49,598 nt of DNA from Candidatus Vogelbacteria bacterium RIFOXYD1_FULL_51_18 (GTDB lineage: Bacteria > Patescibacteriota > Minisyncoccia > Phycocordibacterales > UBA9988). A model generated the notes under the pieces. That model was not told the DNA's origin, searched no databases, and saw nothing but the letters and a program-made list of their open reading frames with translations. The position numbers and the translations under genes were made by a program. The stretch spans positions 1 to 49,598 of the forward strand of contig MHTL01000002.1 in the NCBI GenBank assembly GCA_001823095.1, read 5' to 3'. Shown in pieces: positions 33,449 through 46,641 of this stretch (position 1 is the first letter of the stretch; every line of letters begins with the position of its first letter).

Positions 33449-35620
33449 ATGAACGGCAATCTCGAGAAGACACGCAACTTTGGCATCATTGCGCACATTG
33501 ACGCTGGCAAAACAACGGTGAGCGAGCGCATTTTGTTCTACACCGGCCTCTCGCACAAAATCGGCGAGGTGCACGAGGGCGCGGCGGTGATGGACTGGAT
33601 GGAACAGGAGCGCGAGCGCGGCATCACCATTACCTCTGCCGCAACGACCGCCTTCTGGGTGCCAACGTACTTGTCCGCCGAAGTCCGCCACGACGGAGCG
33701 GATGCAAAAGGCGATACCGCCTCTCCGTATCGCTTTAACATCATTGACACTCCCGGCCACATAGACTTTACCGTTGAGGTAAAGCGGAGCCTGCGCGTCC
33801 TTGACGGCGCCGTCGTCGTTTTTGACGGAGTTGCCGGCGTGGAGCCGCAGAGCGAGACTAACTGGCGCTATGCCGACGAGGGGAAGGTGCCGCGCATCTG
33901 CTTTATTAATAAATTGGACCGCACGGGCGCCTCGTTTGAGCACTCCTTTGCAACTATTTTGGACCGCCTCACTCCTAACGCGGTGCGCATACAGATTCCC
34001 ATTGGCGAGAGTGAGGCGCATGAGGGCGTCATAGACCTTCTCATCATGAAGGCCTACTCTTTTGAGGGCGACAAGGGCAAGGAGGTGATTGAAAAAGAGA
34101 TTCCCGAGAATCTCCGCGCGGCGGCCGAAGAGTACCGTGACATGTTGGTAGAAAAAATTGTTGAGCACGACGATGCCGCTATGACCAAGTACCTCGGCGG
34201 AGAGGAAATTCCCGTACAGGAGCTCAAAAGAATTTTACGCGCGGCCTGCATTGCCAACAAGCTCGTACCCGTCTTCTGCGGCTCGGCGCTCAAAAACAAG
34301 GGCGTCCAGCTGATACTGGACGCAGTGGTGGACTACCTGCCCTCTCCGCTGGACATCCTGCCGGTAAAGGGGCTTGACCCGGTGACGGGAGAGGAGATTC
34401 TGCGCCACGCGACTGATGACGAGCCATTTGCGGCGCTTGCCTTTAAGGTGCAGACTGACCCCTTTGTGGGCCAGCTGACTTACTTCCGCGTGTATTCGGG
34501 AAAGGTGGAGGCCGGCTCCTACATTTATAATGCGACGACGGGCACCAAGGAGCGTGTGGGACGCATTGTGCGCATGCACGCTAACCATCGCGAGGATGTG
34601 AAGGAAGTGCACGCGGGAGAGATTGCCGCTATGGTGGGACTTAAGAGTAGTAAGACTAGCGATACGCTCTGCGATGCCGAGCACCCCATCCTCTTGGAGA
34701 AGATTGAATTCCCCGAACCGGTGGTGTCTTTGCGTATTGAACCAAAGACGAAAGCCGATCAGGAGAAGATGGGCATGGCGCTCAAGCGTCTCTCTGACGA
34801 GGACCCGACCTTCCGCATCAAGTCCGACCAGGAGACGGGGGAGACGATTATTTCCGGCATGGGCGAACTGCACTTGGACATCATTGTTGACCGTATGAAG
34901 CGCGAGTTTAACGTGGAGGCAAATGTGGGTAAGCCGCAGGTAGCCTACCGCGAGACCATCACCGGCACCGCAGAGGTAGAGAATAAGTACATCAAGCAGA
35001 GCGGCGGCCGCGGCCAGTATGGCCACGTGCGCATCCGTGTTAAGCCCTTGGACAAACACATCCCCGAGGGCGCAAAGATTCCCAAGAACGTCACGCGCGA
35101 GCATAATTTTGAATTCATCAACAACATCAAGGGCGGCATTATCCCGCAAGAGTATATTCCCGCAGTGGAGAAAGGCATCCGTGAGGGCATGAGCCGCGGG
35201 GTGCTCGCGGGCTTTGAGCTCGTTGATATATCCGTTGACCTCTATGACGGCTCCTACCACGAGGTGGACTCATCCGAGATGGCCTTTAAAATGGCCGGCT
35301 CCATGGCGCTACAGGATGCGGCGCGGCGGGCCAATCCGGTAATCCTTGAACCGATTATGAAGGTGGAAGTGGTAACGCCGGAGAAGTTTATGGGCGATGT
35401 GACGGGTAACCTTTCGTCCAAACGCGGGCAGATTGAGGGCATGGAAGAACGCGGTGGTAACCGCGTGATTCGCGCCAAGGTACCTCTTTCGGAAATGTTT
35501 GGCTACGTCACTTCCCTGCGCTCCATGACGGAGGGGCGGGCAACCTTCACCATGGAATTTTTGGAGTACGCCATCGTCCCCCAGAGTGTCGCCACCGGCA
35601 TCATTGAATCGCGCAAGTAA
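33449..35620 (+). CDS. fusA: Elongation factor G
   Basis: [39 protein letters not shown]; full-length EF-G domains II-V. Confidence 0.98.
33674..33702. repeat. Degenerate GC-rich palindromic element inside fusA
   Basis: TCCGCCGAAGTCCGCCACGACGGAGCGGA; lies in a coding insertion between TTAFW and [10 protein letters not shown]. Confidence 0.6.
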
Positions 35621-35647
35621 ATTGACTGGAGTCTGACTCCAGTCAAT
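35621..35647. repeat. Post-stop palindrome, copy 2 (perfect 13-bp arms)
   Basis: ATTGACTGGAGTC-T-GACTCCAGTCAAT. Confidence 0.9.
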
Positions 35648-35653
35648 TTATGC

Positions 35654-35779
35654 AAAAAGAAAAGGCCCCGAGCGGGGGCCGAAGGTGAGGTGGGAGCTAA
35701 GAGAGGATTTTGCGCCTGTTAAGGATTAGCAGGCGACGGGGGCAATGTTCTTAAGCCAGAATACTGACTTTTGCTACTT
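35654..35779 (-). ncRNA. Candidate novel sRNA (about 125 nt) between fusA and tuf, transcribed opposite to both
   Basis: Minus strand promoter TTGACA-N18-TATAAT, two predicted hairpins, C/U-rich segment, terminator GGCCCCCGCTCGGGGCC-TTTTCTTTTT. Confidence 0.5.
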
Positions 35780-35785
35780 TCTTCC

Positions 35786-35815
35786 ATTATATCATAGAAC
35801 TATATCATTTGTCAA
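35786..35815 (-). promoter_or_regulatory. Near-consensus sigma70-type promoter
   Basis: TTGACA (35810-35815), 18-bp spacer, TGA-TATAAT (35786-35791), minus strand. Confidence 0.75.
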
Positions 35816-35986
35816 TATCCAGTGGTAAATCCACCATTGAGCCGTAGTTTTGGACTTGCTCCGTGTCCGCCACGGCGAATGTGCGGGGTTGACTTCCAGT
35901 GGAGGTCTGCTAGTATCCTAGTACGCATTCTGCGCGCTTTTTATTGTGCACAGTCGTGTTATTTATAAGTTATCTATCATAAAAGT

Positions 35987-37180
35987 ATGGCAGACAAATT
36001 TGACCGTTCCAAGCCGCACGTCAACGTCGGCACCATCGGGCACGTTGACCACGGCAAAACGACGCTCACCGCGGCTATTTTGCATGTGCTGAACCTTGCG
36101 GGCAACAAGGTGAAGATGCGCGGTGTCAACGAGATTGACAACGCCCCCGAGGAGCGCGAGCGCGGTATTACCATTGCACTCTCGCACAACGAGTACGAAA
36201 CGGCAGCCCGCCACTATGCGCACATTGATGCGCCCGGCCACGCCGACTACATTAAAAACATGATTACCGGCGCCGCGCAGATGGATGGCGCTATCATTGT
36301 GGTTGCGGCAACGGACGGCGTGATGCCCCAGACGCGCGAGCACATCCTCCTGGCCCGCCAAGTTGGCGTGCCTAAGATTGTGGTCTTTCTCAACAAGGTA
36401 GACATGGTTGACGACAAAGAACTCGTTGACCTTGTGGAAGAGGAAGTGCGCGATCTCCTCACCAAGTACGAGTACGACGGCAAGGGCGCGCCGGTCATCC
36501 GCGGTTCTGCGCTCAAGGCGCTTGACGCAAAGAGCGCTGACGACGAGGCGGCCAAGCCAATTCTGGAACTTGCCAAGGCGCTTGACGAGTACATTCCCGA
36601 GCCGGTTCGTGATACATCCAAACCCTTTCTCATGCCGATTGAAGACATCTTCTCCATTGAAGGCCGCGGAACCGTAGTTACCGGACGCATTGAGCGCGGC
36701 GTGGTAAAGGTGGGTGAAGAAGTTGAGATCATCGGCCTCAAGGCAAGCGCTAAGACGACGGTGACTGGTATTGAGATGTTCAACAAACAGCTGGACGAGG
36801 GGATGGCAGGCGACAATGCCGGCGTCCTCCTGCGCGGTGTGAAGAAGGAGGACATTACTCGCGGCCAGGTGCTGGCCAAGCCGGGATCAGTCACGCCGCA
36901 CACCGACTTTGAGGCGCAGGTTTACATCCTTAACAAGGATGAAGGCGGCCGCCACACTCCGTTCTTCAACGGCTACAAGCCGCAGTTCTACATCCGTACC
37001 ACCGATGTGACCGGAGAGGTCACTCTCCCCGATGGCGCCGAAATGGTCATGCCGGGCGACACGGTCACCTTCAAGGTAAAGCTCGTTGCCCCGGTGGCGC
37101 TTGAGGAGAAGCTCCGCTTTGCCATCCGTGAAGGCGGCCACACCGTCGGCGCCGGTTCTGTTACCAAGATTACCGCTTAA
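35987..37180 (+). CDS. tuf: Elongation factor Tu
   Basis: [47 protein letters not shown]. Confidence 0.98.
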
Positions 37181-45534: not shown

Positions 45535-46641
45535 GTGAAGCATAAAAGGAGGTACGAAGGAGTCCTGCCGCGACAGATGCTTGTTGATCTTATTCGCACC
45601 GGCTACATTGCTGGTGCGGTAGAGGCCCAGGCAAATCCGTCATCTATTGATCTCTCACTTTCAGAAGAATGCTACCGTGTGGAAGGGATCGTACAGCCGC
45701 GCATCGGTGAGCGCGTTGCAGATCTGCTTGGCTGTGTGGGAGCTATTCCCCATGAGCTCTCACACCCTATGGAGGTTGGCGTCTCGTACCTTGCGCGGCT
45801 CCGGGAACGCCTGCGCTTGCCGCGAGAGGTCTATGGCTACTGCAATCCAAAATCCAGCACGGGCAGGAATGATGTGCACGTGCGCGTGCTTGCCGATGGC
45901 GTCCCGCGCTTTGATGCGGTAACGCCGGCGGGGCACAAGGCGGAGCTCTGGCTCGCCATCACCCCAAAGTCCTTCCCGGTGGTGATCCATCCCGGAGAAC
46001 GTGTGGCGCAAATGCGTCTCTTTACCGCGAACACGCGCTTCTCGGAACTGGAGCTTGAGGTGGAGATAAAGCGCAACTCGCTCGTCTTCTCTCCGGGCGG
46101 TCGCCCTTTAGAGTATGATGACCTTAAGATTACCGATGCCGACGGGTCGGTGCTCCTCACCTTGAGTTTGCGTAACGGCGCAATAGGCTACCGGTGCCGG
46201 CGGCCGTCCCGCGTGCTTGATTTTTCACAGCGCGGCTACTGCTGGGAGGACTATTTTGAGCGCATCCGTGCCGAGGAGGGGATGCTGCGCTTGCGCCGCG
46301 GCGAGTTCTATGTGCTTTCAACGCATGAGTGCGTTTGCGTGCCGCCCCATCTCTCCTGCGAGGCGGTGGATATGGACTCGCGCACCGGAGAGTTCCGCTC
46401 CCACTATGCCGGCTACATTGATGCCGGTTGGGGTTTTGGGAAGAATGGGAAGGGGAAGGGTAGCCCCATTACCCTTGAAGTGCGCCCTTTTGAGGATCTG
46501 GTTATCCGTGAATGGCAAGCCTTTGCTAAGATTCGCTTTGAGCGCATGGCGGCGCTACCTGACGCGCACTACGATGAGCTAGCCACCTCACACTACCGCG
46601 GCCAGCGCGGCGCCCGCCTCTCCAAGCACTTTGCGCAATGA
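45535..46641 (+). CDS. dcd: Two-domain 2'-deoxycytidine 5'-triphosphate deaminase
   Basis: PSSIDLSLSEECYRV, YGYCNPKSSTGRNDV, IHPGERVAQMRLF and second domain VDMDSRTGEFRSHYAGYIDAGWGFG; GTG start with AAAGGAG SD. Confidence 0.88.
   Translation: MKHKRRYEGVLPRQMLVDLIRTGYIAGAVEAQANPSSIDLSLSEECYRVEGIVQPRIGERVADLLGCVGAIPHELSHPMEVGVSYLARLRERLRLPREVYGYCNPKSSTGRNDVHVRVLADGVPRFDAVTPAGHKAELWLAITPKSFPVVIHPGERVAQMRLFTANTRFSELELEVEIKRNSLVFSPGGRPLEYDDLKITDADGSVLLTLSLRNGAIGYRCRRPSRVLDFSQRGYCWEDYFERIRAEEGMLRLRRGEFYVLSTHECVCVPPHLSCEAVDMDSRTGEFRSHYAGYIDAGWGFGKNGKGKGSPITLEVRPFEDLVIREWQAFAKIRFERMAALPDAHYDELATSHYRGQRGARLSKHFAQ

Follow-up and report, generated by a model that had tools for sequence, protein, structure and literature searches.

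Two translation genes in tandem, fusA and tuf, lie on the plus strand of the window (the whole stretch of DNA analysed, 49,598 nucleotides), and the 366-nt gap between them (35621-35986) holds a compact set of promoter, hairpin and terminator signals on the opposite strand. The features, in order along the window, are:

33449..35620, plus strand: fusA, encoding elongation factor G (open reading frame and Pfam match)
35618..35650, no strand: perfect 15-bp inverted repeat directly past the fusA stop (−19.6 kcal/mol)
35654..35680, minus strand: intrinsic terminator, GGCCCC-CGCTC-GGGGCC then TTTTCTTTTT (6 G-C pairs, −12.0 kcal/mol)
35654..35780, minus strand: candidate RNA of ~125 nt, with its expected start at ~35780 from the −10 spacing and its expected end in the T run
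35681..35712, minus strand: C/U-rich linker, 75% pyrimidine with one G (mean predicted unpaired probability 0.90)
35713..35735, minus strand: hairpin 2, CGCCTG...CAGGCG, 6 bp (−8.4 kcal/mol, ~98% paired)
35719..35787, minus strand: 22-codon frame, the only one of at least 20 codons, no Pfam match to its peptide
35753..35770, minus strand: hairpin 1, AAGTCAG-TATT-CTGGCTT, 7 bp with a UAUU loop (−6.7 kcal/mol, ~98% paired)
35786..35794, minus strand: extended −10, TGaTATAAT (6/6 match plus TG)
35810..35815, minus strand: −35 hexamer, TTGACA (6/6 match)
35889..35916, plus strand: TTGACT-16-TAGTAT with TG (9/12 match), the probable promoter of tuf itself
35987..37180, plus strand: tuf, encoding elongation factor Tu (open reading frame and Pfam match)

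The minus-strand promoter is of the extended −10, sigma-70 type and matches at 12/12 positions, with an 18-nt spacer between TTGACA and the −10; a preliminary description of this DNA had picked out these elements, and all are where it had placed them. The terminator that it named is likewise present, with the hairpin GGCCCCCGCTCGGGGCC at 35680-35664 and TTTTCTTTTT running on to 35654, but the stem begins 105 nt past the −10 rather than the ~125 nt given; this distance gives an expected length of ~125 nt for the RNA. Beyond the terminator, the inverted repeat at 35618-35650 carries no more than a short T run on each strand (a poor U tract); it is likely the end-of-gene hairpin of fusA, and could possibly also serve the minus-strand RNA as a backup, making it a two-way terminator.

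Of the properties that identify a stand-alone sRNA gene, a promoter and an intrinsic terminator of its own are thus both present as DNA signals, and the third, the lack of an encoded protein, also holds. No minus-strand ORF of at least 60 aa lies inside the unit, and the 22-codon frame, the sole candidate, begins at the only ATG (35787-35785), which overlaps the −10, just as previously described; this frame is probably not translated.

We asked how often such signals arise by chance. The whole window was simulated with Markov models, 20 times at first order and 120 times at second order, and no promoter matching at 12/12 positions appeared; when only the gap was simulated at first order, the probability of one was about 0.0003. 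A terminator of such grade is expected in a random 260-nt stretch with a probability of about 0.003-0.005, and none of 120 simulated windows contained a full promoter-terminator unit, so that the intact unit without a credible ORF, the core of the preliminary description, lies far beyond chance. Sites matching at 11/12 or better numbered six in the window, vs. 0.45 expected from first-order simulation (spacers of 16-19) and 0.21 from second-order simulation (spacers of 16-18). Loci from other genomes, 772 kb in all and mostly patescibacterial, held 63 promoters of that grade vs. 27 expected; 40 lay near gene starts, showing that sequences of this type mark promoters here. Neither a second orphan unit of equal grade elsewhere in the window nor an orphan promoter-terminator pair of equal kind in those 772 kb was found. 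Judged by the simulations and by this absence elsewhere, the fusA-tuf unit is rare and can hardly be noise. A discrete non-coding RNA of ~125 nt is thus likely to be transcribed, and we predict from the DNA signals that, on balance, it is real.

The predicted fold of this RNA consists of three separate local hairpins, with ensemble pairing of ~98% in each: the two described previously, which we locate at 35770-35753 and 35735-35713, and that of the terminator. The previously noted C/U-rich stretch falls within 35712-35681 and is predicted to be ~90% unpaired. For the whole RNA the folding energy is −31.9 kcal/mol, with a z of −2.3 relative to shuffles; such a modest z means that the fold by itself is not evidence of function.

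The host genome (633,812 bases, 99% complete) appears to belong to the order Paceibacterales (Parcubacteria), judging by the names of its closest FusA relatives, the nearest of which, at 76% identity, is from a Ca. Vogelbacteria genome. The candidate RNA had been proposed as novel, and it indeed has no Rfam match at the gathering threshold and nothing meaningful at E values up to 10. Neither BLASTN nor a single-sequence covariance model found a homologue in 396 other Paceibacterales genomes, all outside the host's family; nor did the covariance model find one in the ten genomes with the closest FusA relatives or in the loci from other genomes. When BLASTN was relaxed to E values up to 1 there were hundreds of weak matches, the best of 18-38 nt and mostly to the AT-rich promoter or to the terminator and T-run end, which we take as background. 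The sole covariance-model match was weak (E = 0.006, in one genome among 397 searched) and about at chance level. The RNA was not found in viral contigs, the best matches in phage records covering promoter letters only.

Comparison of the gap itself gave a similar picture: no comparable minus-strand promoter with a terminator was seen in relatives' fusA-tuf gaps of up to 1 kb. Conservation in relatives, to which the preliminary description had looked, is thus, as far as genomes from outside the host's family can show, not borne out by BLASTN, covariance model or gap comparison. As far as can be seen from the genomes and gaps compared, the unit is lineage-specific. Across Parcubacteria the gap ranges from about 50 (51) to ~4700 nt (variable at loci L024, L026, L028, L029, L033, L034, L041 and L046). 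Some of these gaps hold other genes or small ORFs; L024 has small ORFs and terminators to go with them, and at a further relative locus, L023, a large unrelated gene lies directly 3' of fusA, which together give the gap the look of an insertion site.

Several other explanations of the unit were weighed, the first two of them being the chief competitors. One, to which we give a low probability, is that transcription itself is what matters: convergent minus-strand transcription, together with the terminator and the fusA inverted repeat, would insulate tuf from fusA read-through, and the RNA would be a by-product. The unit lies exactly between the two genes, faces fusA and is divergent from the tuf promoter with ~73 bp between them, and the absent conservation would suit a by-product; however, fusA is already followed by a strong hairpin (−19.6 kcal/mol), and insulation has no need of the two additional clean hairpins in the RNA. 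We also think it improbable that the signals are spurious or decayed. They would then be a reverse promoter of AT-rich sequence, or what is left of an earlier gene at a variable site of insertion, and would yield no functional RNA. The great variability of the gap in relatives, some with other genes or small ORFs, and the lack of conservation in those searched are what such an origin would leave, but a perfect promoter with an intact terminator is very unlikely by chance, and decay would be expected if they were useless.

It is very unlikely that the unit is instead a tiny mRNA, in which a weaker upstream promoter, TTACCA-18-TATAGT (35828-35799), would start transcription near 35792, so that the 22-aa frame MEESSKSQYSGLRTLPPSPANP would be read from an almost leaderless message. 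The upstream site matches at 9/12 positions with a TG, the frame is intact, and near-leaderless translation is plausible where so few window genes have a Shine-Dalgarno (SD) site; against this, transcripts from the much closer-matching 12/12 promoter would begin past the ATG, and the peptide is without a Pfam match.

That the RNA is a divergent 6S or SRP RNA copy missed by Rfam is barely credible: both are missing among the Rfam matches of the host genome, but the candidate, though likewise short and of housekeeping size, has neither the long interrupted hairpin of 6S RNA nor an SRP-type fold or sequence, and matches neither family (RF00013, RF00169) even at E values up to 10. An SRP RNA would also have no Ffh partner here, and since Ffh was not found none is expected. 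The host and 20 relatives (21 Paceibacterales genomes) yielded no SRP RNA (RF00169, RF01854) and no Ffh above the cut-off, two marginal Ffh-domain matches falling far below it, with searches (RF00169 and Ffh) that matched in most or all control genomes; this agrees with the published loss of SRP in Parcubacteria (PMC4508563). No 6S RNA scored above the cut-off in the same 21 genomes, an absence that is weaker because the 6S model also misses several control genomes.

Stand-alone genes for trans-acting sRNAs are intergenic, the Hfq-dependent sRNAs of enterobacteria being examples. The candidate resembles them in its sigma-70 promoter, its size (~100-130 nt), its local hairpins and open linker, its terminator with a U run and its lack of a credible ORF; it differs in that no Hfq and no conservation were found, and in being known from DNA signals alone. 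Hfq (PF17209) had no match in the host genome or ten relatives, in a search that did detect it in 5 of the 14 controls, among them E. coli and B. subtilis; a KhpA-like protein was found in the host. The Rsa RNAs of staphylococci are C/U-rich, carry UCCC motifs and pair with SD regions. Here too a single-stranded C-rich stretch could pair with G-rich sites, but it is part of a linker and not of a hairpin loop, its pairing with start regions does not exceed that of shuffles, and SD sites in the window are few.

Indeed, pairing with SD sites is the part of the preliminary description that found no support. Over 35 start regions of window genes the C/U linker showed no excess pairing, 29 of 100 shuffles doing equally well, and only about 7 of 51 window genes (with crude start calls) had an SD-like motif no more than 20 nt from the start. 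The best local pairing, −22.9 to −23.2 kcal/mol, was with a dCTP-deaminase-like gene, in its start region at 45535; this target was set aside, 13 of 200 shuffles equalling it; pairing of the 5' part of the RNA with the fusA start region was equalled by 6 of 200, not significant across ten tests. Pairing with tuf or with the fusA 3' end gave nothing above shuffles. We regard as highly doubtful the fuller proposal of a new Hfq-independent Paceibacterales sRNA, coupled in position to fusA and tuf, whose C/U linker mimics an anti-SD sequence and so acts selectively to repress the SD-led mRNAs, a minority where initiation is mostly SD-less. The simpler idea of a discrete sRNA stands as to the unit, the lack of an Rfam family and the defined local structure, though not as to SD pairing.

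What is directly established is that the DNA signals exist, that they are improbable by chance, and that neither a credible ORF nor a detectable homologue was found; from these we infer, as the best reading, a lineage-specific orphan sRNA gene, together with its transcription, ends, function and mode of action. Under this reading an RNA polymerase of the sigma-70 type would begin on the minus strand near 35780 and make a ~125-nt RNA in which two short hairpins are followed by the single-stranded C/U-rich linker and then by the GC-rich hairpin of the terminator. It would stop at the U run about 35 nt short of the fusA end, and no protein would be made. Action of the RNA in trans through base pairing is an indirect and tentative suggestion: the open linker might pair with purine-rich segments in a single mRNA or a small number of them, without Hfq but perhaps aided by a KhpA-type chaperone. 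A literature search, with most subscription-journal papers outside its reach, turned up no study of regulatory sRNAs in Patescibacteria, and so strong and compact a candidate beside core translation genes is a specific and cheap target for metatranscriptome mapping. If the orphan sRNA gene is transcribed, a genome of ~0.63 Mb without detectable Hfq, SRP or 6S RNA still keeps a stand-alone sRNA gene.

The 7-mer CCAGTGG occurs twice in the gap, at 35820-35826 just upstream of the minus-strand −35 and at ~35896-35902 in the spacer of the tuf promoter; the pair may be a shared operator or may be due to chance.
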